Source: Chloroflexaceae bacterium (GTDB lineage: Bacteria; Chloroflexota; Chloroflexia; Chloroflexales; Chloroflexaceae). From it: a stretch of 48,358 nt of DNA. The stretch is taken from positions 1-48,358 of the forward strand of contig JANWYD010000024.1 of NCBI GenBank assembly GCA_025057155.1, in the 5' to 3' direction. This document shows positions 4,835 through 41,044 of the stretch, piece by piece (position 1 is the first letter of the stretch; each line of letters opens with the position of its first letter). The notes beneath the pieces were generated by a model. It searched no databases and was not told the DNA's origin. It saw nothing but the letters and a program-made list of their open reading frames with translations. A program made the position numbers and the translations under genes.

Positions 4835-7620
4835 GCGAGAAGACCGAGGGCGCGGGCGCGGGCAACGGCGTGGGTCCGGTCGCGGGCGGCGAGTTTGCCG
4901 TACAGGTGGTGCAGGTGGGTCTTTACCGTGCCGACGCCGACGACCAGCAGGTCGGCGATCTCCTGGTTGGAGCGACCCTCGGCGATCAGATGCAGGATCT
5001 CCTGCTCGCGGGCGGTTAATGGCTCCTGCAGAGGTTCGAGTGGCGTGGTGTCGGGGGGCGGTACGGACGCGCCGTATGTCGCCGGGAGATCGACGGGGGC
5101 GTGCGGAGCCGGGCCGGGCCGCGCCTTTGAAAGCGCGGCCGCGGCGTCGAGGAAGATGCGCCGGGCGCACATAGGCGCCGCGATGCGGCGCGCTTCGTCG
5201 AGGGCGCCCGCCGCCGTGGGTCGCCCGAGGGTGTGCTCCGCCTGCGCCCGCAGGACGGACAGTTCAAGCATGAGCCGCGCGTCTCCGCTCGCCGCGGCCT
5301 GTGGCAGCCGCGCGATGATCCAACCCAGCGCCTCCTCGGCGCGCCCCGCGGCAATCCCCACCTGCAGCCAGGTGGCGAACACGAACGCTTCCGATAGAAA
5401 CAGGGGGCCAGCCGGAGGCGTGTAGCGTCGCGCCCATTGCTCCGCCGCCGCCAGGTCGCCCTGGAGCAGGGCCAGCCGCGCGGCGACCGCCCGGGCGTAG
5501 GTTGCCACCAGGGGGAGCTTGAGGCTCTCGGCGGCGAAGCGCAGAAACCGATCGCTGACGGCCCGGGCCTCGGCGGGCCGGCCCTCGGCCTGGCGCAGCA
5601 ATGCCAGCGCCGCGTAGCCGAACGGGAGGGCGTCGCGCACCTCGCCCTGCTCCGCCAGGGCGATCCCGGCCTCGAGGCGCCGGGTGGCCTCCGCCAGTTC
5701 ATCGCGCTCGTATGCCAGCGTGCCCAGGCCGATCATCGCCCAGCCCGCGACGGGCAGGAGCGCGACGGAGGCGCCTGCGGCGGGCCGCGCGCGGGCCAGC
5801 GCCTCGTCGTAGGCCGCGCTCGCGTCCTCCCAGCGCCCGAGGCTCTGGTAGAGCAGCCCGGCCAGGCACCGCGTGGTGATCGCGGTGTGGCGGTCATCGG
5901 CGTCGAGCAGGTGCAGCGCCTCGCGGTAGGGTTCGACGGCCGCGGCAAGCTCACCGCCCATGTGCAGCGCGAGCGCCAGGCCCATCGTCGCGAAGCCGCG
6001 CAGGGTCGGTTCGCCGGCGCTGATGAGCGCGCGGGCCTCGCGCGCCCGCGCGATCGCCTCGGCGTACTGGCCGCGAACGCGAAGCATGTGGCTGTCAAGC
6101 GCAACGATCCAGGCCCGCAGCGCGCGGCGCTCGTCCTCCGCAAGGTCCGCCGCGGGGAGGGCCGCCGCCGCCGCGTCGAGAAGGGGCGGCACGGCGTCCG
6201 GCTCGGCGCGGCCGAAGCGCGCCCGGGCCAGCAGGATGGCGAGCGCCGGCGACGCCTCCACCCGCCCCGGCGGCAGGGCCTGGATCAGGGTGGCAAGCCG
6301 CGCGAAGGCGCCGTGGCGCAGCAGCGTCTCGCCCGAATCCTCGATGAGACCGGCGGCCCGCTCGTCGTCGCCGCCGGCGAGCGCGTGGCGCACCGCCGCA
6401 TCGAGCCGCGCGGGGCCGTCCACCGCCACCGCGCGGGCGTACCAGGCTGCTGCGCGGCGGTGGAGCGTTGGGGCCGCCTCCGGCGCCAGTTCATACAGCC
6501 GCGCCCGCAGGACCTCGGCAAACAGATGGTGGTAGCGGTACCAGCGTCGCTGGTCGTCAAGCGGAACCAGGAAAAGGTTCTTGCGCTCTAACTCCCGAAG
6601 AAGGTGCTGGCTGAAGCTGGCGCCGGAATCGCCGGCGGAGGCGCCTGGCGCCCGGCTTTCCGCCGCGATACCGAGGACTGCGTCGCAGAGCGAGCCGCAG
6701 AGCTCATCGAGGATCGCGGTTCGGAGGAGAAACTCCCGGATGTGGAGCGGCTGCTGCGCGAGCACCTCGTCGGCCAGGTAGTCAATGATGTAGCGGTGAC
6801 TCCCGGCAAACGCGGCGACAAATCTGTTTGGGTCGGGCTGATCGCTGAGGGCCAGGGCAGCCAGTTGCAGGCCGGCGGCCCAGCCCTCGGTGCGCGCCTC
6901 CAGCGCCTCGATGGCGGCCTCGTCCAGACGGAGACCGGTCGCGGCGGCAATGAGTTCGCGCGCCTCGGCAGTGGTAAAGCGCAGATCCGCGGCGCGCAGT
7001 TCCGTCAGCAGCCCGCGGGCGCGGAGCCGGGCCAGCGGCAGGGGCGGGTCGGCGCGAGCGGTGATCGCCAGATGGACCTGGGGCGGCAGCCGCTCGATCA
7101 GTTGGATGAGCGAGGCGTGAATATCCGGATTCTCGATGAGGTGATAGTCGTCGAGCACCAGCGCGTAGGGCCGCTCGGGACCGGTGACGGGGGGCAGGGC
7201 GGCCAGGCTGTTGATCAGCGTCGCCACGATGACCGGGAGCGGGGCGGGCTGGGGCGCCCGCGCGAGCGAGAGGGCCGCCGCGCCCGCCCCGGGCGCCAGC
7301 CGCTCGCAGGCGGCGCAGACATAGCTCCAGAACAGCGCCGGGTCGTTGTCTTCGGCGTCGAGGGAGAGCCAGGCGAAGCGTTCGAGCGATTGCGGGTCCG
7401 CCGGTCGCGCTTCCAGCAGCCACGTGCTCACGGCCGTCGTCTTGCCGGCGCCTGCGGGCGCGGAAATCAGGGTCAGCGGACCCTGCTGCCCCTGGCGCAG
7501 CTTCGCGACCAGCCGTTCACGGGTGATGATCTGTTGTCGCCGCGGCGGGCTGAGCAGCCTGGTCGCGAGGAGCGTATCGGGTGGCCGCCGCCCGGCCTCC
7601 GCCTGTTCTTCCGCCGCCAT
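4831..7620 (-). CDS. MalT-type LuxR family transcriptional regulator (LAL)
   Basis: This 929-residue protein has the architecture of large ATP-binding LuxR regulators. An N-terminal STAND NTPase has the Walker A motif SAPAGAGKTT near residues 53-62 and the Walker B-like ALVLDDYHLI near 150. A winged-helix segment and a long helical TPR-like sensor region (about 400-800) follow. The C-terminal LuxR helix-turn-helix (about 865-925) contains LTAREQEILHLIAEG and VGVGTVKTHL. Such proteins multimerise on binding an inducer plus ATP and activate target promoters. The inducer cannot be inferred. The gene overlaps the ASCH gene by 4 bases; no other likely target lies nearby apart from the divergent operon at 8332, about 710 bases upstream. 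Confidence 0.93.
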   Translation of the reverse strand: MAAEEQAEAGRRPPDTLLATRLLSPPRRQQIITRERLVAKLRQGQQGPLTLISAPAGAGKTTAVSTWLLEARPADPQSLERFAWLSLDAEDNDPALFWSYVCAACERLAPGAGAAALSLARAPQPAPLPVIVATLINSLAALPPVTGPERPYALVLDDYHLIENPDIHASLIQLIERLPPQVHLAITARADPPLPLARLRARGLLTELRAADLRFTTAEARELIAAATGLRLDEAAIEALEARTEGWAAGLQLAALALSDQPDPNRFVAAFAGSHRYIIDYLADEVLAQQPLHIREFLLRTAILDELCGSLCDAVLGIAAESRAPGASAGDSGASFSQHLLRELERKNLFLVPLDDQRRWYRYHHLFAEVLRARLYELAPEAAPTLHRRAAAWYARAVAVDGPARLDAAVRHALAGGDDERAAGLIEDSGETLLRHGAFARLATLIQALPPGRVEASPALAILLARARFGRAEPDAVPPLLDAAAAALPAADLAEDERRALRAWIVALDSHMLRVRGQYAEAIARAREARALISAGEPTLRGFATMGLALALHMGGELAAAVEPYREALHLLDADDRHTAITTRCLAGLLYQSLGRWEDASAAYDEALARARPAAGASVALLPVAGWAMIGLGTLAYERDELAEATRRLEAGIALAEQGEVRDALPFGYAALALLRQAEGRPAEARAVSDRFLRFAAESLKLPLVATYARAVAARLALLQGDLAAAEQWARRYTPPAGPLFLSEAFVFATWLQVGIAAGRAEEALGWIIARLPQAAASGDARLMLELSVLRAQAEHTLGRPTAAGALDEARRIAAPMCARRIFLDAAAALSKARPGPAPHAPVDLPATYGASVPPPDTTPLEPLQEPLTAREQEILHLIAEGRSNQEIADLLVVGVGTVKTHLHHLYGKLAARDRTHAVARARALGLLA

Positions 7621-7751: not shown

Positions 7752-7925
7752 TCTCAGGTGTAGGGTTTTTGGGGCGAGCAGGGGTTTTCGGCATTCCAAT
7801 GCGCTTACGGTCCTCACCCCCCTGCCCCCCTCTCCACCTACGGTGGAGAGGGGGGAGTTGGGCGTCCCAATGCCCCGGATGGCGAATGCGACGCGAGGAT
7901 GTGTCGGAAAACCCTACACCTGAGA
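7752..7925. repeat. Nested inverted-repeat element, 174 bp
   Basis: An 18-bp sequence at 7752-7769 recurs as its exact reverse complement at 7908-7925. Inside it, 7825-7838 and 7842-7855 form a perfect 14-bp hairpin with a TAC loop. The flanks also show GGACCC/GGGTCC complementarity. The outline (terminal inverted repeats around a non-coding palindromic core) resembles a MITE or a large REP-like element. No coding capacity is seen. Confidence 0.75.
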
Positions 7926-8331
7926 ACGGCCCGAGGGGCGGGTCCGAGAGGGCGTAGCCCCCGGAACCCTATAGGACACCCGGGGTGTTCGGACGGGTTT
8001 GCCTCTCCCAACGGCAACGCCGGAATGCGCCATGCCTGCCATTCATACTCAAGGCAGGCATTATACGGCGCGCGGAGAGGCGGCGCAACCCGGTGGCGTC
8101 GTGTTTTGCGCGACCCCCTCGCCAGCATACCCGTTGGGTGGTTGTGCGCCACTACTCGGGTTCTATCCCCAGGTGGAGGCCACGCGGCGCGAGGTTCCCG
8201 GCCCGGCTCTACCGCGGGCTCTATCGCGCGATAGAGGCGCTTTGCCCCGCCGGCGAGCGATACTGTCGGCAATAAGCAGCGGCACGGCCCCGTGGAGAAG
8301 GCGGCCGCATCTGAGCAAGGATACCGTGGCG
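7926..8331. other. Intergenic DNA before the 8332 operon
   Basis: No protein in any frame looks real here. There is a perfect 18-nt palindrome at 8219-8236 (CTCTATCGCGCGATAGAG). The stretch separates the leftward LuxR regulator from the rightward three-gene operon, so it should contain promoters, but none is clear by eye. Confidence 0.4.
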
Positions 8332-8568
8332 ATGGCTCATTACATCATCCGCGTGGGCGGACACCTGGCGGCCCGCTGGTCAGTCTGGCTGGCTGGCATG
8401 GAGTTGCGCCATGAGGCCGACGGCACGACGACGCTCTCCGGCGCCCTGCCGGATCAGAGCGCGCTCTTCGGCGTGCTGACGAAGATCCGCGATCTGAATC
8501 TCCCGCTGCTCGCCGTCGAACGCGCTGGCGAGACGACAGTAGACGAGTGCTACGGAGGAAGACAATGA
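8332..8568 (+). CDS. Small conserved protein, unknown function
   Basis: A 78-residue soluble protein beginning MAHYIIRVGG. The pattern (a beta strand, a W-S-x-W segment, HEADGTTTLSG, then an A-L-x-x-x-L-x-x-I-R-D-L motif) is one I recognise from small uncharacterised proteins of actinobacteria and Chloroflexota, often beside membrane proteins. No catalytic motif is evident. The gene overlaps the next by 4 bases (ATGA at 8565-8568), which indicates translational coupling to the CPBP protease gene. Confidence 0.7.
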   Translation: MAHYIIRVGGHLAARWSVWLAGMELRHEADGTTTLSGALPDQSALFGVLTKIRDLNLPLLAVERAGETTVDECYGGRQ

Positions 8569-9332
8569 ACAACTCCATGACCGGCGCCATCGGGCGGACC
8601 CGCACCTGGCGCGCCATTCTCACGACGGCCCTGGCGCGGCGCCCGGTCCCCGCGGCCCTGACGATCGCGGCGGGTGATGTCCTTATCCGCGTGGCCCTGC
8701 AACTGGGGGTGCAGGCCCTGCTCGGCCCGCGCTGGGCCGAACTGGTTACCCTCGTCATCCTGACGGGGCTGACGCTCGGGCTGATCGCCTTGCTCGGCTG
8801 GTGGGGCCCGGCGGGCTTCAACCGGCCCGCGGCCTGGCGCTCACCCGGCTTGCTCTGGCTGCCGGCAGCGCTGACCTTCGTCCTGCCGTTCGTGGCCGGC
8901 TTCCGCAGCACCGAATTGCCCATGGCCGGCGTGTTCGCCGTGGCCTACCTGCTGGTCGGGTTACGGGAGGAGGCGCTGTTCCGTGGCGTCGTGCTGCGGG
9001 CGCTTGAGCGCCTGGGGCCGATGGGCGCGGCCACACTCACCAGCGTTCTGTTCGGGCTCACCCACCTCGCGAACCTGTTCTTTCGCGAGAGCCCAGGGCT
9101 GGTGCTGGCCCAGGTGGTAGGGGCAATGACCACTGGCTTTGGCTACGCCGCCCTGCGACTGCGCACCAACACCCTCTGGCCGCTGATCGTCCTGCATGCG
9201 TTTGAGGATCTCACGCTCCACTACAGCCATCTGCCGGTCATCCCTATCCAGGTGATCCGCGGCGTGACGCTGGTGATCTATGGAGCATGGCTGCTCCGCG
9301 GTTGGAGCGTAGAGGATCAGGAGGAAGCGTGA
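8565..9332 (+). CDS. CPBP family intramembrane metalloprotease
   Basis: A 255-residue multi-pass membrane protein with about seven hydrophobic segments. The CPBP (Rce1/Abi) signature is present: an EE pair in LREEALFRG near residues 138-146, and FGLTHLANLFF near 165-175, whose His is a metal ligand. A third conserved His-rich helix (LIVLHAFED) follows near 208. Family members are membrane-embedded glutamate proteases acting in prenyl-protein processing, bacteriocin immunity or stress signalling; the substrate here is unknown. ATG 8565 is chosen because GGAGG lies 6 bases upstream and it overlaps the previous stop. Its own stop overlaps the next start (TGATG). Confidence 0.88.
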   Translation: MNNSMTGAIGRTRTWRAILTTALARRPVPAALTIAAGDVLIRVALQLGVQALLGPRWAELVTLVILTGLTLGLIALLGWWGPAGFNRPAAWRSPGLLWLPAALTFVLPFVAGFRSTELPMAGVFAVAYLLVGLREEALFRGVVLRALERLGPMGAATLTSVLFGLTHLANLFFRESPGLVLAQVVGAMTTGFGYAALRLRTNTLWPLIVLHAFEDLTLHYSHLPVIPIQVIRGVTLVIYGAWLLRGWSVEDQEEA

Positions 9333-30319: not shown

Positions 30320-31543
30320 GTGACCCACCAACCGGACGAGGACAAATTGCCCCTTGCGGGCATTAAGGTTATTGACGCCGCGACAGTCATCGCCGCGCCA
30401 TACTGCGCGACCATCCTGGGCGAGTTCGGAGCCGAGGTGATCAAGGTGGAGCATCCCCTCGGCGGTGATGCGCTGCGGCGCTTTGGCACCCCGACGGAAC
30501 GCGGCGATACCCTGACCTGGCTGAGCGAGTCGCGCAACAAGAAATCGCTCACCCTTGATTTGCAGCGTCCCGAGGGCAAGGAGATTTTCAAGCAACTCGT
30601 GGCCCGCTCCGACGTGCTCTGCGAGAACTTTCGCACCGGCACCCTCGAAAAGTGGGGGCTGGGCTGGAATGTGCTCCACGAAATTAATCCCCGCTTGATC
30701 ATGCTGCGCGTGACCGGCTATGGTCAGACCGGCCCCTACGCTGATCGTCCTGGTTTTGCCCGCATCGCTCATGCCGTCGGCGGCATCGCCTATCTCGCCG
30801 GCATGCCCAAGGGCACGCCGGTTACCCCCGGCTCGACCACCCTTGGCGATTACATGACCGGCATCTACGGCGCCATTGGCGTGCTCATGGCCCTGCGCTA
30901 CCGCGACCAGACCGGCTGCGGCCAGTACATTGACGCCGCGCTCTACGAGTCGATCTTCCGCTGCACCGATGAACTGGCTCCGGCCTACGGCATGTACGGC
31001 ATCGTGCGCGAGCGCCATGGCCCCCATCACAACGATTTCGCCTGTCCCCACGGCCATTTCCCCACCCGCGACGGCAAGTGGGTCGCCATTTCGTGCGCCA
31101 CCGACAAGCTCTTCGCGCGGCTGGCCCGGGCCATGAACCGTCCCGAACTGGCCTCCTCCAGCATCTACGGCGAGCAGAAGGTGCGCCTGGAGCACTGCAA
31201 TGACGTGAACGAGATCGTGCGCGACTGGTGCGGCTCGTTGACCCGCGAGGAGGTGCTTGAGCGCTGCTACGCCACCGGCACGCCCGCCGCGCCCCTCAAC
31301 AACATCGCCGACATCTTCGGCGACCGGCAGTTCCACGCCCGCCGCAACCTGGTGGCGATGGACGTGCCGGAGACTGGCGAGACGGTGATTATCCCCACAG
31401 TGATCCCCAAACTCTCGGCCACCCCCGGCCGGATCAAGCATCTCGGCCCGCGCCTCGGCGAGCATACCGACGAAGTACTGCGCGACGTGCTCGGTCTCAG
31501 CAATGAAGAGATCGCGTCGCTACGCGAGAAACGGGTGATCTGA
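30320..31543 (+). CDS. smtB: Succinyl-CoA:L-malate CoA-transferase subunit B
   Basis: A 407-residue family III CoA-transferase, close in sequence to SmtA without the N-terminal extension. Predicted catalytic Asp177 lies in [22 protein letters not shown] and GYGQTGPY are shared with SmtA. The two proteins form the active malate CoA-transferase of the 3HP bicycle. Start GTG 30320 follows GAGGAGAG. The gene's TGA overlaps the ATG of mct (TGATG at 31541-31545), implying translational coupling. Confidence 0.92.
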
Positions 31544-32766
31544 TGACACAAGGACTGCTCTCCGGTCTCCGGGTCGTCGAAGGTTCGGCCTTCGTCGCCG
31601 CGCCCCTCAGCGGCATGACCCTGGCGCAACTCGGCGCCGATGTGATCCGCTTCGACCCCATCGGCGGCGGCCTGGATTACAAACGCTGGCCCGTCACCCG
31701 CGACGGTCACCACAGCTTGTTCTGGGCCGGCCTGAACAAGGGCAAGCGCTCCATCGCCGTGGATATTCGCCATCCCCACGGCCAGGAGTTGCTCACGCGC
31801 CTGATCTGCGCCCCCGGCGACGGCGCGGGGCTGTTCATCACCAACTTTCCCGCCCGCGGCTGGCTCAGCTATGAGGCCCTGCGCGCCCACCGCGCCGATC
31901 TGATTATGGTCAACTTCCTGGGGCGTCGCGATGGCGGCTCGGAGGTGGATTACACTGTCAACCCCCAGCTTGGCCTGCCCTTTATGACCGGTCCCGAAGG
32001 CATTGCCGACCCGGTCAACCACGTCTTCCCGGCCTGGGATTTTATCTCCGGGCATCTGATTGTCGTGGGTCTGCTCGCCGCCGAGCGCCACCGGCGTCTC
32101 ACCGGCGAAGGGCAACTGGTGCAGCTCTCGCTTAAAGACGTGGGCCTGGCCATGCTCGGCAACTTTGGCATGCTCGCCGAGGTGATGATCAACAACGAGG
32201 ATCGCCCGCGGCAGGGCAACTACCTCTACGGGGCCTTCGGACGCGACTTTGTGACCCTCGACGGCAAACGGGTCATGGTGGTGGGGCTGACCGACCTGCA
32301 GTGGCGCTGTCTGTGCAACGCCACGGGGCTGGCCGGGGCCTTTGCCGATCTTGGCAACCGCATGGGCCTCGACCTTAATCAGGAAGGCGACCGCTTCCGC
32401 GCCCGTCGCGCGATCGCCCAGCTCCTCGAGCCGTGGTTCCACGCCCGCACCTTCGACGAAGTGCGCCGCGCTTTTGAAGAGCACCGCGTGACCTGGGGAC
32501 CGTACCAGACCGTGCGTGAGTTGATCGCCGGCGATCCCGATTGCTCAACCGCCAATCCGATGTTTTCCATGCTTCAACAGCCTGGCATCGGCGCCTACCT
32601 GGCCCCGGCCACGCCGCTATCCTTCAGCCAGGTGGAACGCCTGCCGGCTCAGCCCGCGCCGCGCCTCGGCGAGCATACCGACGAGATTCTGGCCGAGTTG
32701 GGGCTGAGCGATGGTGAAATTGCCCGGCTCCACGACGAAGGCGTTGTTGCCGGACCAGCAGCCTGA
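31543..32766 (+). CDS. mct: Mesaconyl-CoA C1:C4 CoA transferase
   Basis: A 407-residue family III CoA-transferase more distant from SmtAB. It carries out intramolecular CoA migration from C1 to C4 of mesaconate, without free CoA intermediates. The predicted catalytic residue is Asp166 in PAWDFISGH, replacing the LGDY context of Smt[21 protein letters not shown] is the N-terminal CoA-binding motif. It overlaps smtB by one base and is followed 14 bases later by mcl with a GGGAGG site. The identity is strengthened by its position between smtB and mcl. Confidence 0.9.
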
Positions 32767-32780
32767 CGGGAGGAACCGCT

Positions 32781-33824
32781 ATGAAACTGCCCTACAATTT
32801 TTATCGGCCCCTGGCCATTGGCGCGCCTGAACCTCTGCGTGAGATTCCTGTGCGCCCCGAACGCATGATCCACTTCTTCCCGCCCCATGTTGAGAAGATC
32901 CGCGCCCGTCTGCCTGAAATCGCCCGCCAGGTGGACGTGCTCTGCGGCAACCTCGAAGACGCCATCCCCATTGACGCCAAAGAGGCCGCCCGCGCCGGCT
33001 TTATCGAGGCGGTGCAGTCCAATGATTTCGGCGATACCGCTCTCTGGGTCCGCGTCAACGCCCTCAACAGCCCCTGGTTCCTCGATGATATGACCGCCAT
33101 CATCGAGGCGGTTGGCAATCGCCTCGACGTGATTATGATCCCCAAGGTCGAAGGACCGTGGGACATTCACTTCGTTGACCAGTACCTCGCTCTCCTCGAA
33201 GCCAGGTACAGGGTGCAAAAGCCCATACTCATTCACGCTCTGCTCGAAACCGCCCAGGGCGTGATGAATGTCGAGGCGATTTGCGGCGCCAGCCCGCGCA
33301 TGCACGGCTTGAGCCTCGGCCCCGCCGATCTGGCCGCCTCGCGCGGTATGAAGACCACCCGCGTCGGCGGCGGCCATCCTTTCTACGGCGTGCTCGCCGA
33401 TCCCCAGGAGGGCAGCACCGAACGGGCCTTCTTCCAGCAAGACCTGTGGCACTACACCGTCGCGCGCATGGTTGACGCCTGCGTCTCTCACGGTCTGCGC
33501 GCCTTCTACGGGCCGTTTGGCGACCTGAAGGACGAAGCCGCCTGCGAGGCCCAGTTCCGCAACGCCTTCCTCATGGGCTGCACCGGGGCCTGGACCCTGG
33601 CGCCCAACCAGATCCCCATCGCCCGTCGCGTCTTCAGCCCCGACGTTAACGAGGTGCTCTTTGCCAAGCGCATCCTCGAAGCCATGCCCGACGGCAGCGG
33701 CGTGGCGATGATTGACGGTAAGATGCAGGACGATGCCACTTGGAAGCAGGCCAAAGTGATCGTTGATCTGGCCCGGATGGTGGCAAAGAAAGATCCTGAA
33801 CTGGCCCAGCTCTATGGTCTCTAA
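32781..33824 (+). CDS. mcl: L-malyl-CoA / beta-methylmalyl-CoA / citramalyl-CoA lyase
   Basis: A 347-residue HpcH/HpaI (CitE-like) TIM-barrel lyase. The putative Mg2+ ligands are Glu156 (LLETAQG) and Asp183 (LGPADL). [13 protein letters not shown] near 56-68 and the RVNA strand near 75 are also conserved. In the bicycle it cleaves L-malyl-CoA to acetyl-CoA and glyoxylate, condenses glyoxylate with propionyl-CoA to beta-methylmalyl-CoA, and cleaves citramalyl-CoA to pyruvate and acetyl-CoA. ATG 32781 follows GGGAGGAACC. It ends before a GCAACC hairpin at 33855. Confidence 0.93.
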
Positions 33825-33854
33825 CCCCTGTAAGGAAGTCTGGTCTCCATTCCA

Positions 33855-33883
33855 TGTGGAGCAACCCTCCAGGTTGCTCCACA
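33855..33883 (+). repeat. GCAACC hairpin (12-bp stem) between mcl and mch
   Basis: TGTGGAGCAACC (33855-33866) pairs perfectly with 33872-33883. It belongs to the dispersed GCAACC family and could reduce readthrough into mch or mark a promoter gap (140 bases) before it. Confidence 0.7.
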
Positions 33884-33966
33884 CATCAATGAAGATGCTA
33901 TCTGCCGGTCAAAGGGATGGGACAACACGGCTTCCCCAAAGACACCTCAGTTTACAGGAGTAAACA

Positions 33967-35022
33967 ATGGCTTCAAAAACCACCCGCGGAAACTTCTTTG
34001 AGGATTTCCGCCTGGGTCAGGAATTGATCCATGCCACGCCCCGCACGGTTACCGAGGGTGACGTGGCCCTGTACACCGCTCTGTACGGGTCGCGCTTCGC
34101 CCTGAACTCGTCGGCGCCCTTCGCCGCCAGCCTGGGGTTGCCTCAGGCCCCTCTGGATAGCATGCTCGTGTTCCACATTGTCTTCGGCAAAACTGTGCCG
34201 GACATCTCTCTCAACGCCATCGCCAACCTCGGCTATGCCGCCGGGCGCTTCGGCCAGCCGGTGTTTCCCGGCGATACCCTCAGCACCACCTCGACCGTCA
34301 TCGGCCTGCGTCAGAACAAGGATGGCAAGAGCGGTGTGGTCTACGTGCGCTCCATTGGAACCAACCAGCGCGGCGAAATGGTGGTAGACTACATTCGCTG
34401 GGTCATGGTGCGGAAGGGCGATCCAGACGCGCCCGCCCCCGAAACGGTGGTGCCCGATCTGCCAGAGGCGGTTCCGGTGAGTGAACTGGTGGTCCCCTAC
34501 CGCGTTGACCGCGGGAGCTACGATACCGCGCGCGCCGGCAGTCCCTTCCTGTGGGACGATTACGAGCCAGGCGAGCGGATTGACCATGTTGATGGCATGA
34601 CCATCGAAGAGGCCGACCATATGCTGGCGACGCGCCTGTACCAGAACACCGCGCGTGTGCACTTTAACCAGCACGTGGAACGGGAGGGGCGCTTCGGGCG
34701 GCGGATCGTCTACGGCGGGCACATTATCAGCCTGGCGCGGGCGCTATCCTTCAACGGCCTGGCCAATGCCCTGAGCATCGCCGCGATCAACGGCGGGCGC
34801 CATACCAATCCCAGCTTTGCCGGCGACACCATCTATGCCTGGTCCACCATCCTCGACCGTATGGAACTTCCCGGTCGCGATGATATCGGGGCGCTGCGGG
34901 TACGCACGGTGGCGACCAAGGATCGGCAATGCGCCGATTTCCCCGATAAGTCGGACGATGGAAGCTACCCGCCATCAGTGGTGCTCGACTTCGACTACAC
35001 CGTGCTGATGCCGCGGCGCTGA
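33967..35022 (+). CDS. mch: Mesaconyl-C1-CoA hydratase (beta-methylmalyl-CoA dehydratase)
   Basis: A 351-residue protein of two fused MaoC-like hot-dog domains. The first (about 10-165) has GYAAGRFGQPVFPGDTL, and the second (about 190-350) has VHFNQHVE and RRIVYGGHIISLARALS. It dehydrates erythro-beta-methylmalyl-CoA to mesaconyl-C1-CoA, the substrate of Mct. ACAGGAG lies 7 bases before ATG 33967. It ends the 3HP block. All five glyoxylate-assimilation functions encoded here (Smt, Mcl, Mch, Mct, Meh) are thus adjacent. Confidence 0.93.
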   Translation: MASKTTRGNFFEDFRLGQELIHATPRTVTEGDVALYTALYGSRFALNSSAPFAASLGLPQAPLDSMLVFHIVFGKTVPDISLNAIANLGYAAGRFGQPVFPGDTLSTTSTVIGLRQNKDGKSGVVYVRSIGTNQRGEMVVDYIRWVMVRKGDPDAPAPETVVPDLPEAVPVSELVVPYRVDRGSYDTARAGSPFLWDDYEPGERIDHVDGMTIEEADHMLATRLYQNTARVHFNQHVEREGRFGRRIVYGGHIISLARALSFNGLANALSIAAINGGRHTNPSFAGDTIYAWSTILDRMELPGRDDIGALRVRTVATKDRQCADFPDKSDDGSYPPSVVLDFDYTVLMPRR

Positions 35023-36939: not shown

Positions 36940-36972
36940 GCCGTGGCGCAACCTTCCGGGTTGCGCTACGGC
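36940..36972. terminator. GCAACC hairpin between convergent cnoX and GH57 genes
   Basis: GCCGTGGCGCAACC (36940-36953) pairs with 36959-36972 with a single G-T pair. It covers the GH57 stop codon and lies just past the cnoX stop, so it can end transcription from both sides. Confidence 0.7.
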
Positions 36973-38423
36973 GCAAAAATACGAAAGTTCAGATTCGGAA
37001 AAACTCCATCAAGTTCCTCTAATTGCTCCAACAGAAACAGATCGCCAGGGCTGGCCCGTTCCTGTTGCGCCATCGCGGCAAGCTGTTCAAAACGGTCGAG
37101 GTACACGCGCCAGCGTCCAGTCCATTCGTCCGTTGCTCCCGCGCTCAGCCGCCCCGCCCAGTCGCCTGTCTGGGCAAGCATGAGCTCGCGGGCGGCCTGG
37201 TTGAGGACCCGCTCGCGGTCACCCTCGGCGCCGGGGTAGGCCCCGGCGAGTTGCACCATGCGCTCCTCAGCGGCGTGGAGCGCCCGCCAGTACGCTTCAG
37301 CGGCGCCCCCCTGCCAGCCGGCATGCCCTCCCACTGACCACGAGCCTTCACGCAGGGCGACCTCGATGTCCGGACGATGCGCGCGCAGATAGGCCCCTGG
37401 CGTGGTGAGGGTCAGAGCGCCATGGGTGGCGCAGTGGGTCAGCACGGCCTGGAGCCAGGTGCCGCCCTCGACCCAGGTCGGGCCGATCTGGCCGGCATGG
37501 AGCAACACCAGGGCCAGATCGCGCGTCCCGCGACGGCGCGCCTCGATGACCAGGGCCGTGGTGAAGTGGTTGGCATGCTCCTGCGCGCGCCGCAAGGCGT
37601 GATAGGGATCGTAGGGTGCGCCGCTGCGGGAGAGAATGCCCCGCGCATCGGCGGGATCACGGTACACAGGATCGCCGGGATACCCCAGCTCCTCCGACCA
37701 GACATGCCGCGCCAGATCCTCATCGGGAAAGACGGCGGCTACGCGGCGTCCGGCCAGCCAGAAGGGTTGTGGCGCCAGCGTGGGCGGGAGCGAACTCGGG
37801 TCGGCCACCAGGTAGCGTAGCCCGGCGTCGGCGGCTATGCCCTCAACGCCGGGGCGCCAGCCGGCGCCAGGCAGCCAGAGGCCCTCGGGGCGTCCGAGGT
37901 GGCGGCTGATCTGGAGCACGCCCTGCTCGATCTGCGCCCGCACTGACTCCTCTCGCCCCAGGAGAGGAAGATAGGCGTGGGTCGCTGGCACGGCCAGCGG
38001 CTCGATCACCCGTGCCGTGGTCAGTTCGCGGATGGCCCGCGCCAGGTTACGCTGGAAGCGCTGCTCAAAGCTGCGCAGCCGCTGCCAGCCCCATTCCAGA
38101 TAGAACCGCTCCAGATACGCGGCGTGATGGTCGCCATTGCGCTCAGCGACGGCCAGTTCCGCTTCGCGGCGGGCCAGCACATCGTGCATCCAGAGCACGA
38201 AGTGTTTCTGAACCACCGGGTCGGCCAGTTGATCCGCCAGGAGCGGCGAGCACGCCAGAGCGATCCGCGGACGCAGGCCGCTGCTGTGCAGATCGCCCAG
38301 CAATTCCAGCAGCGGCAGCAAACCCTGGGCCGCCAGCGTGTGCAGGGCCTCTTCGCCGAGGGGGCGCCGCCCCGCTCGGCGCACATATGGCACATGGGCC
38401 AGCACCAGAAAGGCGACGTGCAT
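36966..38423 (-). CDS. GH57 family protein, apparently without catalytic residues
   Basis: A 485-residue protein with the GH57 branching-enzyme layout: an N-terminal barrel starting LAHVPYVRRAGR, an insertion of helices, and a C-terminal helical domain (about 395-485). Active GH57 branching enzymes carry a nucleophile Glu in W-L-P-E and an acid/base Asp in Y-D-x-E-L-F-G-H. Here the sites read WLPG (Gly186) and HAGQIGP (His309), so both carboxylates are missing, as is the catalytic-site His-Trp-Trp. It may be a carbohydrate-binding or regulatory pseudoenzyme. The reading frame is intact. No ribosome-binding site is clear. Confidence 0.82.
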   Translation of the reverse strand: MHVAFLVLAHVPYVRRAGRRPLGEEALHTLAAQGLLPLLELLGDLHSSGLRPRIALACSPLLADQLADPVVQKHFVLWMHDVLARREAELAVAERNGDHHAAYLERFYLEWGWQRLRSFEQRFQRNLARAIRELTTARVIEPLAVPATHAYLPLLGREESVRAQIEQGVLQISRHLGRPEGLWLPGAGWRPGVEGIAADAGLRYLVADPSSLPPTLAPQPFWLAGRRVAAVFPDEDLARHVWSEELGYPGDPVYRDPADARGILSRSGAPYDPYHALRRAQEHANHFTTALVIEARRRGTRDLALVLLHAGQIGPTWVEGGTWLQAVLTHCATHGALTLTTPGAYLRAHRPDIEVALREGSWSVGGHAGWQGGAAEAYWRALHAAEERMVQLAGAYPGAEGDRERVLNQAARELMLAQTGDWAGRLSAGATDEWTGRWRVYLDRFEQLAAMAQQERASPGDLFLLEQLEELDGVFPNLNFRIFAP

Positions 38424-38507: not shown

Positions 38508-40130
38508 CTACGGCGAGGGGATCACCGGCGTCACCACCGTGGGCGAACCGAGGATCGGCGGCTCATCGGTTGGCGTAGGCGTCGGCGAGGCTGTTGCGGT
38601 GGCGGTAGGCGTGCTGGTTGCCACCGTGGGCGTTGGCGTAGGCTCGGGTGTACTGGTTGCAGTGGCCGTTGCTTCTTCCGGCGTAGTGGTTGGCGGCGGC
38701 GGCGCAGTGGGCGGGATGGTCGCTGGCAGCGGCGCGGTAGGCGGTGGCGGCGGCACGGTAACCGGTGGTGGCGGCAGGGTCGGTGAGCCGAGGGTCGGCG
38801 CCGGTGGGGCAACCGTACCGTCGGGGATGGTCGGCGTGGCGGGCGCCGCTGTTGGCGGCGCGGGGCTGGGCGGGGCCGGGCTGGGCGTTGGAATCTCCGG
38901 TGGCGGTTGAAGCGGGGGAACACTCGCCATGCCGCGCGCCACGATGAAGATGAACGCCGCCGTCACCATTACCAGCACCGCTCCAAGCAGCAGCAAGGGC
39001 AGTGCGCTTCCGTCGCCGGCCTGCCTGGGACGACCAGGCTCTCCGGGGCGCGACAGCCCGTCGGACGTCGGCGGGCGAGGGGCCGGCGGAGTGGCAGGGA
39101 AGCGTGTGGCAGGCGTGGTCGGCGCGTTGCCGGTCGCGACGGGCGCCGGTTGCGGCGCGGCGACGGCGGACGGCAGCGACCCGACCGGGGGCCGCCCGCG
39201 CGGCGGCGGCGCGGGAATGGCCTGTGGTATCGGAGGGCGGGGTGTTACCCCCACGGGATTAGCCAGAGCCGCCAGTTGCTCGCGAGTAGCCAGCGGCATC
39301 CCGTGGCGTGCGGCTACGGCACGCAGGGCCTCTACCAGATCCAGGCCGCTTGCAAAGCGCTCTTCGGGCCGCTTCGCCAACCCTTTCGCCAGAACATCGT
39401 CAAGTTCCTTCGGCAGGTGCGGCAGGATGCTCGATGGCGGCGGCGGAGGGAGTTGGGCGTGGGCGACGATTAGTTGCGGCGCCGTGCCGGTAAAAGGCGC
39501 CCGCCCGGTGATGATCTCATACGCCACCACCGCCAGGGCGTAGAGATCGCTGCGCCCGTCCACTCGTCGCGCCTCGGCCTGTTCGGGCGAAATGTACTCC
39601 GGCGTGCCCATGAACAGCCCGGTGCGCGTGAGCCGCTCGCCGTCGGAGTCGGGCGTCTGGGCGATGCCGAAGTCCGTCAGCAGCACCCGGCCATCGTGGT
39701 CTATGAGAATGTTGTGGGGCTTGATGTCGCGATGCACCGCGCCCAGGGCGTGAGCGTAATCCAGGGCGCGGGCCACCGGGTCGAGGATGCTCACCGCATA
39801 GCCCAGGCCCAGAGTAGTGCGCTCCTCGAGCACGGCATACAGGCTGCGCCCGGAGATATACTCCATGGCGATGTAGTGCAGCCCGTCTTCCTCACCCACA
39901 TCGTAGATCGTCACAATCGCGGGGTGGTGCAGATTGGCCGCAGTGGTCGCCTCGCGTTCAAAGCGCCGGATGTATTCGGGGTCAAGGCTCAGTTGCGCCG
40001 CCAGGATCTTGATTGCCACGGGCCGCTGAAGCTGCGTGTCCACTGCGCGGTACACGCGGGCCATGCCCCCGCGACCAAGCTCGGCGCGGATCTCGTAGCG
40101 CCCCAGGCGGCGTCCGATCAGGCTGGTCAC
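38508..40130 (-). CDS. Transmembrane Ser/Thr protein kinase
   Basis: A 540-residue Hanks-type kinase. The kinase domain (about 10-275) has glycine loop LGRGGMARVY, ATP-binding Lys in VAIKIL, catalytic HRDIKPHN (Asp135), DFGIA and the APE-like SPEQ. One membrane helix lies at about 376-399, followed by an extracellular tail of about 140 residues that is almost all Pro/Thr/Ala. No PASTA domain is present; the tail looks like a cell-wall spanning stalk. I prefer GTG 40130 with AAGGAGAG upstream; the earlier ATG 40235 lies upstream of a TATACT-like box. It diverges from the FHA regulator gene, a likely phospho-substrate. Confidence 0.9.
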   Translation of the reverse strand: MTSLIGRRLGRYEIRAELGRGGMARVYRAVDTQLQRPVAIKILAAQLSLDPEYIRRFEREATTAANLHHPAIVTIYDVGEEDGLHYIAMEYISGRSLYAVLEERTTLGLGYAVSILDPVARALDYAHALGAVHRDIKPHNILIDHDGRVLLTDFGIAQTPDSDGERLTRTGLFMGTPEYISPEQAEARRVDGRSDLYALAVVAYEIITGRAPFTGTAPQLIVAHAQLPPPPPSSILPHLPKELDDVLAKGLAKRPEERFASGLDLVEALRAVAARHGMPLATREQLAALANPVGVTPRPPIPQAIPAPPPRGRPPVGSLPSAVAAPQPAPVATGNAPTTPATRFPATPPAPRPPTSDGLSRPGEPGRPRQAGDGSALPLLLLGAVLVMVTAAFIFIVARGMASVPPLQPPPEIPTPSPAPPSPAPPTAAPATPTIPDGTVAPPAPTLGSPTLPPPPVTVPPPPPTAPLPATIPPTAPPPPTTTPEEATATATSTPEPTPTPTVATSTPTATATASPTPTPTDEPPILGSPTVVTPVIPSP

Positions 40131-40284
40131 ACGGCGCTCTCCTTGCGGCAGCAGGCGCGGTGGCGTTTTTGCCGTTGCAATACAGTATACACGATCAGGA
40201 ACCGTAGAGGATGCGGAGGGTTTCAAGTGGTCCATCCTCTGCGCCCTCCACGGTGTGCCTGAACGGGCGCGCCGAAAGCGCGGA

Positions 40285-40390: not shown

Positions 40391-41044
40391 ATGCACGCTG
40401 TTCCCGCTCCCAAACTCGTCATAAAGCGCCAGGGTGGTCAGTTGCGCGAACTGGAGTGGACCGCCGATGTGATCACCATCGGGCGCGATGGGTCAAACGA
40501 TGTGATTATTGACCATCCGCAGGCGTCGCGACGCCATGCCCGTCTCGAACGCACGGAGGACGGCTTCGCGGTGCGCGACCTTGATAGCACGAACGGCACC
40601 TTCGTCAACCAGGAGCGGATCGCCGGGCTTTATGTGCTCCATAATCAGGACCAGATCATTATCGCCGATACGGTGATCGTCTTCCACGATCCCGAGGCCA
40701 CCGTCAAAGGCGCCCTGCCGCCCGAGGTGCTGCGCGCGGTGCGGGAAGAGTTGCGGGTGGATAGCCGCGCTAAAGAAGTGTATATCAAGGGCCAGTTGCT
40801 CAGGCCGCCGCTGACGGTCAAAGAGTTCCAACTGCTGGAGTTGCTCTATGAGCGCCGGGGACAGGTGGTGAGCAAAGATGAGATTGCCCGCAAAGTGTGG
40901 GATTACGAGGTTTTTGACTACAACGCGATTGACGCGCTGGTCTACCGCTTGCGGCAACGCATCGAGCCCGATCACAGCAATCCGCGCTACCTGATTACCC
41001 AGCGAGGTTTCGGATACAAGCTGGTGACCACGCCCGAAGGCTAA
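40391..41044 (+). CDS. FHA domain fused to OmpR-type winged helix
   Basis: A 217-residue regulator. The N-terminal FHA domain (about 25-100) has the conserved G-R, S-x-x-H and N-G elements (IGRDGSNDVII, SRRHARLE, DSTNGTFVN), which bind phosphothreonine peptides. A C-terminal OmpR/PhoB-type winged helix (about 115-213) has LTVKEFQLLELLYERRGQVVS and RYLITQRGFGYKL. A receiver domain is lacking, so input is likely Thr phosphorylation, for instance by the divergently encoded kinase. GGAGGAA lies 7 bases before ATG 40391. aroA follows 3 bases after its stop. Confidence 0.9.
   Translation: MHAVPAPKLVIKRQGGQLRELEWTADVITIGRDGSNDVIIDHPQASRRHARLERTEDGFAVRDLDSTNGTFVNQERIAGLYVLHNQDQIIIADTVIVFHDPEATVKGALPPEVLRAVREELRVDSRAKEVYIKGQLLRPPLTVKEFQLLELLYERRGQVVSKDEIARKVWDYEVFDYNAIDALVYRLRQRIEPDHSNPRYLITQRGFGYKLVTTPEG

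Follow-up and report, generated by a model that had tools for sequence, protein, structure and literature searches.

What does a GH57 protein do once both of its catalytic carboxylates have gone? The window analyzed here, the whole stretch of 48,358 nucleotides of contig JANWYD010000024.1 (assembly GCA_025057155.1, a Chloroflexaceae bacterium), encodes on its reverse strand (36966–38423) a branching-enzyme-like protein of 485 amino acids that the first-pass annotation had described as a pseudoenzyme, with an intact frame and its C-terminal domain kept. The frame begins with ATG and contains no internal stop codon; the Glyco_hydro_57 domain (PF03065; residues 6–351, 37371–38408, reverse strand) scores 60.9 bits against a Pfam cut-off of 21.2, and the BE_C C-terminal domain (PF09210; residues 382–483, 36975–37280, reverse strand) scores 79.7 bits against a cut-off of 25, confirming the annotation on both counts. 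The combination of a GH57 barrel with a helical C-terminal domain, a feature of GH57 branching enzymes (GBEs), is present by both Pfam and predicted fold. The solved structures that match the protein by sequence all belong to GH57 (5WU7, 3N8T together with 3N92 and 3N98, 1UFA, 3P0B and 2B5D), and its AlphaFold2 model (mean pLDDT 91.6, pTM 0.91, built with 20 aligned sequences) superimposes on 1UFA with Z = 45.4 and an rmsd of 2.0 Å over 463 aligned residues (Foldseek TM-score 0.88 over the query), and on the five listed GBE/AmyC structures with Z values of 42–45. Outside GH57, the fold matches of the model include GH38 mannosidases and polysaccharide deacetylases. The protein is thus predicted to adopt an intact branching-enzyme fold, shared with the Thermus enzyme over almost the full length; no signal peptide was recognized by eye.

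The TT1467 GBE of Thermus (1UFA, 3P0B) shares this fold, and its E184, D353 and H9 are replaced in the window protein by Gly, His and Leu. In HMMER alignments, the window's WLPG186 lies opposite WLPE of the Thermus enzyme and its H309 opposite the Asp of PYDAELFGH; counting positions along these alignments equates Gly186 (codon GGC, 37866–37868, reverse strand) with E184, the nucleophile of CSR-3, and His309 (codon CAT, 37497–37499, reverse strand) with D353, the acid/base of CSR-4, roles that are given in Table 1 of PMC6616209. Leu8 (codon 38400–38402, reverse strand) stands in the place of the His that polarizes the acid/base in GH57 GBEs, according to the same table. No substitute carboxylate takes either catalytic place, the neighboring residues reading LWLPGAGWRPG and LVLLHAGQIGPTW. 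The first-pass annotation had asked whether a correct alignment would put carboxylates elsewhere in the site; a shifted alignment that conceals one is ruled out, as HMMER and MAFFT agree and the flanks (WLP before, W.EG after) are in register.

The wider active site is also heavily altered. Taking the T. kodakarensis active-site set as 16 positions (the nucleophile, the acid/base and the 14 further residues in Table 1 of PMC6616209), alignment mapping finds five kept in the window protein (H12, W270, W407, W416 and D467), with E183, D354, the polarizer H10, R261, S466, W28, W22, F24, F285, W361 and F470 all changed. The R261 counterpart is present in none of the 27 Chloroflexaceae copies described below. 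The W22 counterpart is missing in seven of seven planctomycete rows and the F24 counterpart is His in ten of ten long Chloroflexota rows, despite kept carboxylates in both groups, and Table 1 of PMC6616209 gives no W28 counterpart for T. thermophilus. The flexible catalytic loop with a Tyr at its tip is absent from more than 90% of the GH57 GBEs analyzed in PMC10346327; as a comparison of span only, the distance from R190 to G247 is 57 residues in the window protein, 62 in all seven planctomycete rows and 73–110 in the ten long Chloroflexota rows. Thermotoga maritima AmyC (2B5D), a short-loop GH57 GBE that the window model matches with Z = 42.6, is active with its short catalytic loop and, unlike the window protein, keeps the nucleophile, acid/base and polarizer (PMC6616209). 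In our view the window protein is very probably devoid of glycoside hydrolase and branching activity, and the alignment, the predicted fold and the purifying selection described below all support its reading as a pseudoenzyme.

The protein was found in 27 of 41 genomes of the family, the window's included, without in-match stop codons in any of them; matches were obtained in 89 of 149 genomes in the class-wide search and in 51 of 251 in the search of the phylum. The named records that it matched were Chloroflexaceae, uncultured Chloroflexales, Chloroflexi/Chloroflexota, Oscillochloris, Chloroploca and Chloroflexus, plus seven Planctomycetota.

The best lead on what the pseudoenzyme may do is the pairing of its gene with that of a protein kinase, which the first-pass annotation does not mention. 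In the window, a Ser/Thr protein kinase gene (38508–40235, reverse strand; Pkinase 158.3 bits) lies directly upstream of the pseudoenzyme gene on the same strand, 84 bases away; its product has a hydrophobic stretch, probably a membrane segment, and ends in a T/P-rich tail. The kinase sequence contains HRDIKPHN and DFG, which we take to be the motifs of an active kinase, and Pfam recognized no folded sensor domain in it. The tail is a repeat region that varies in length, the listed paired kinase ORFs comprising 483–647 amino acids. Divergent from the kinase gene is one whose product joins an FHA domain to an OmpR-type winged helix (40391–41044, forward strand; FHA 75.4 bits, Trans_reg_C 78.7 bits), in which Pfam recognized no receiver domain; this FHA–winged-helix protein occurs in 37 of the 41 family genomes. 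Of the 27 genomes that carry the pseudoenzyme gene, 26 have the kinase gene, or the part that encodes its tail, immediately upstream in the same orientation, a count that includes junction fragments (G002, G025), the pair in G003 and kinase tails upstream in G001 and G017. The exception is G035, where 2.5 kb upstream of the copy contains no kinase gene and the kinase is on another contig. When the ORFs of 34 loci and the window were clustered, the kinase and GH57-like genes adjoined in 20 rows (19 genomes, L032 and L100 being the same), separated by −16 to 171 bases or, in one case, by 505; the FHA gene cluster was on the other side of the kinase in 16 of these 20, and the genes on the far side of the pseudoenzyme gene varied between genera. 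Among the 14 family genomes in which no copy was detected, six (G005, G019, G020, G023, G028 and G039) possess the kinase without an adjoining GH57 gene, so the kinase does not need this partner; in the other eight the contig ends at the locus, or the kinase or FHA gene was not found. The almost fixed pair of a pseudoenzyme gene with a membrane-type Ser/Thr kinase gene is new here.

Three other families carry short copies of the GH57 gene: f4, which we take to be Roseiflexaceae (Roseiflexus-like), f3, and f2, presumably Herpetosiphon-like. The kinase cluster is at none of their 14 loci compared (eight f4, four f3 and two f2), so that the f4 loci, with the kinase beside the GH57 gene in none of the eight, are unlike the window. 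Other neighbors were observed there. A gene for a DUF2270 membrane protein lies upstream of the short f2 copy L075, with a PP2C-type phosphatase gene downstream (5605–6378 and 7795–8595), and the same two clusters flank L076; a gene for an APH-fold protein (L099, 8151–9110) is directly upstream of a Glu-keeping f4 copy, its cluster recurring in L063 and L065. One protein each of the PP2C-like and APH-like neighbors was scanned for these assignments.

That a class of catalytically disarmed GH57 proteins exists has already been catalogued, and the window clade is an example of it under purifying selection. PMC6037648 describes 'like' groups within GH57, including 60 bacterial branching-enzyme-like sequences of 520 residues on average; with some exceptions, the 'like' proteins lack one or both catalytic residues and are considered very unlikely to function as typical members of GH57, their analysis being deferred. 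Compared by description, the window protein is of this kind (bacterial, GBE-related, with its catalytic residues replaced). The passages of PMC6037648 available to us give neither genomic context nor function for the GBE-like proteins, and words beginning Chloroflex or Roseiflexus do not occur in its main text. The first-pass annotation knew of no described function for a dead GH57 branching-enzyme-like protein; this holds for the literature searched, a scope outside which most subscription papers fall, where neither such a function nor a paper on the kinase pair was found, even though the group itself is published.

Linkage in nearly every family genome that has the gene suggests a signaling partner rather than a catalyst. 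Our best explanation, to which we give an even chance, is that a GH57 branching-enzyme fold without catalysis has been kept for another job: it would serve the kinase as a partner or substrate without activity of its own, and may bind glucan. Gene order likewise leads us to consider the pseudoenzyme a functional partner of the Ser/Thr kinase with evenly balanced confidence. Against partnership, gene order within one family can result from shared descent alone; moreover, the Asp kept at the acid/base position in most copies is not predicted by a purely structural role. The exception in G035, the six genomes whose kinase lacks a GH57 neighbor and the sister-family loci devoid of the kinase cluster also weigh on this side.

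Glucan is a tentative candidate ligand, one that we hold at somewhat below even probability from the pattern of conserved residues. By alignment, the window protein retains three of the four aromatic gatekeepers of the T. kodakarensis GBE, as Trp242 (37698–37700; counterpart of W270/W274), Trp362 (37338–37340; W407/W404) and Trp370 (37314–37316; W416/W413), all on the reverse strand, and each of the 19 family copies outside genus g4 has the same three. Within g4, whose copies match the named Chloroflexus records, the W407 counterpart persists in one of eight copies, that of W270 in five and that of W416 in six, so that two of the three are clearly eroded and glucan binding may not extend to the whole clade.

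The same residues would serve a glucan binder that has nothing to do with the kinase, one that holds glycogen or maltodextrin as a scaffold or chain-end protector for GlgB and GlgX, the adjacency to the kinase being merely inherited order. The 19 copies with all three Trp residues speak for this, as do the glycogen genes of the window's genome, which carries a GH13 GlgB (over cut-off in 38 of the 41 family genomes), two GlgX and a glgA_Coryne-type synthase, the last two also over cut-off. It must be set against the changed counterparts of W28, W22, F24, F285, W361 and F470 in the window and the eroded gatekeepers in g4, and it leaves the kinase linkage in 26 of 27 genomes unexplained; we judge it unlikely, though deserving of serious weight. 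Classical glgA (TIGR02095) is over cut-off in eight of the 41 family genomes, the window's not among them, and the window's genome encodes a second GH57 protein, of 854 amino acids. The idea that branching has been left to the pseudoenzyme is rejected on the presence of GlgB in this genome, as branching need not rely on it. Elsewhere in the window, 30320–35022 encodes a CoA transferase, a 2-methylfumaryl-CoA isomerase (over cut-off), a CitE/malyl-CoA-lyase-like lyase and a mesaconyl-CoA-hydratase-like protein, a block that we take to be 3-hydroxypropionate-cycle genes.

Comparison across the family separates the fates of the two carboxylates. The nucleophile column of the 27 Chloroflexaceae copies contains Gly in 25, Ala in one and Asn in one, with Glu in none, versus Glu in every one of the 17 rows from the Planctomycetota and long-Chloroflexota groups, a difference that makes the loss more than chance; the polarizing His follows the same division (0 of 27 versus 17 of 17). 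The acid/base column, in contrast, retains Asp (GAT or GAC) in 24 copies, with Asn in two (L025 and L027, both of genus g4) and His in the window alone. The idea that the changes seen by the first-pass annotation might be conserved in a clade therefore stands for the nucleophile and falls for the acid/base: loss of the nucleophile, together with the polarizer, is the mark of the clade, three copies lack the second carboxylate as well, and loss of both carboxylates across the clade is ruled out.

Such a solitary His309 could be a sequencing or assembly error that conceals an Asp. The window's CAT is one base from the GAT of its two congeners, both of which have Asp in proteins 84–86% identical to the window's, and no other row of the 27 has His in this column. 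The Asn in the two g4 copies nevertheless indicates that loss of the acid/base is tolerated, and we consider an error distinctly improbable.

Glycine at one catalytic position in 25 of 27 copies and Asp at the other in 24 would also fit an enzyme of changed chemistry, which, like a glycosynthase, would catalyze inverting transfer from an activated beta-configured donor, His309 acting as the base in the window. Glycosynthases have mostly been made from retaining glycosidases and use activated donors, for example glycosyl fluorides, and two of the engineered variants, E235G and E335G, are themselves Glu to Gly substitutions (PMC6151457). However, the Gly is replaced by Ala or Asn in two family copies and the Asp by Asn or His in three, the polarizer His and the R261 counterpart are lost in 27 of 27, and second-shell columns evolve fast. 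We know of no natural activated donor for the reaction, and hold it to be very unlikely.

Returning to a fold retained without catalysis, the sister families bear on how the catalytic machinery was lost. In f4, Glu is present in ten of 12 rows (Ser replaces it in L066 and Ala in L067) and Asp in all 12; in the four f3 rows the Glu is replaced by Ser, Gly, Gly and Ala, the Asp being kept; and two of the three short f2 copies keep both carboxylates, the third, L076, having Asp for Glu and Gln for Asp. The f4 copies are 42–46% identical to the window protein over the eight Glu-keeping rows measured. The polarizer is other than His in 11 of 12 f4 rows (L067 has His), four of four f3 rows and one of three short f2 rows, as it is throughout the Chloroflexaceae. 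As it is gone from most f4 rows while Glu and Asp stay, the catalytic machinery may have started to decay ahead of the loss of the nucleophile. Two isolated cases were also seen: L096 (G086, family f6), a long Chloroflexota copy with Glu but with Ala instead of the acid/base, and, in an f4 genome, a copy interrupted by two stop codons (G067:C59:18156–18652).

A tree of 63 rows was built after removal of the catalytic columns; from the class search it includes 12 f4, four f3, three short f2 and ten long copies, a subset of all class matches. Left out ahead of the counts were L001 (the genome's other GH57 protein), L002, L003 and L030 (duplicates and a fragment), L031–L042 (12 loci scoring identically to loci with G handles), L059, L081–L091 and L100 (duplicates) and L098 (a fragment). 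The Chloroflexaceae copies form one group (support 100/100), all short copies group together (100/99), as do the long ones (97/90), and f4 is the sister group of the Chloroflexaceae copies, with support for f4 of just 92/77. Parsimony requires at least three changes between Glu and not-Glu and five between Asp and not-Asp, and by our own count there were four losses of Glu if it was never regained: in the Chloroflexaceae copies, L066/L067, f3 and L076. These counts come from a tree with long end branches (L079, L076, L067, L096, L066, L061 and L020), long branches meeting at L076 and odd letter make-up in six rows. A single nucleophile loss for all short copies of the order is disfavored by the tree; that short copies within one order have lost it repeatedly is the second new finding here.

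The pseudoenzyme is under purifying selection. Nei-Gojobori dN/dS is 0.04–0.18 in 11 close pairs, the window compared with its two congeners giving 0.15 and 0.16, and no consistent difference between residues 1–351 and 352–485 was found across the 11 pairs. Columns 187, 311, 315 and 316 have undergone nine or ten changes in the 27 family rows, where 86–90% of the 485 columns change less, versus none or one in 24 intact rows; the acid/base column, with three changes, is mid-range (39–52%). Unchanged in all 27 (window numbering) are H10, W183, W189, R190, Y248, G250, Y254, Y271, H283, W317, E319, W323, D421 and W422, of which Trp189 and Arg190 close the motif WLPGxxWR (residues 183–190; 37854–37877, reverse strand), and the position of W189 is occupied by Tyr or Phe throughout the 24 intact rows. 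This intact set omits L096 and also L068, L069, L074 and L075, which keep both carboxylates and have lost the CSR-2 His; were the omitted rows added, some columns would no longer count as invariant. The column changes point to a catalytic centre that has relaxed while the fold and some neighboring residues are held. Although repeated loss of site residues, the broken relative in G067 with its two stops and the failure to detect a copy in 14 of 41 family genomes could suggest a decaying gene without present function, the low dN/dS, the frames free of stops in all 27 copies and the 95 of 485 columns that are invariant over rows with pairwise identities as low as 43% disfavor a pseudogene and make decay exceedingly unlikely.

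If retained for the sake of the kinase, the pseudoenzyme would act in the cytosol, as a regulator or a substrate of it. Alpha-glucan chains would perhaps be bound via the kept Trp residues, linking glucan state to phosphorylation, and the FHA–winged-helix protein is a candidate reader of that phosphorylation. In its fullest form, which we consider rather improbable, the dead enzyme would be the intracellular glucan-sensing subunit of a three-gene phospho-signaling module composed of the membrane kinase, the pseudoenzyme and the FHA–winged-helix regulator. If this is true, glucan-chain occupancy of the pseudoenzyme would control the kinase, and the status of the carbon store would set transcription in the Chloroflexaceae. 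For annotation, the family-level label 'GH57 branching enzyme' will here name proteins without catalytic residues. In this clade the loss can be mapped phylogenetically, as most copies in the sister family keep Glu and Asp, and there are named Chloroflexus copies and a concrete candidate partner gene, so that the role of a dead GH57 protein could be learned here.
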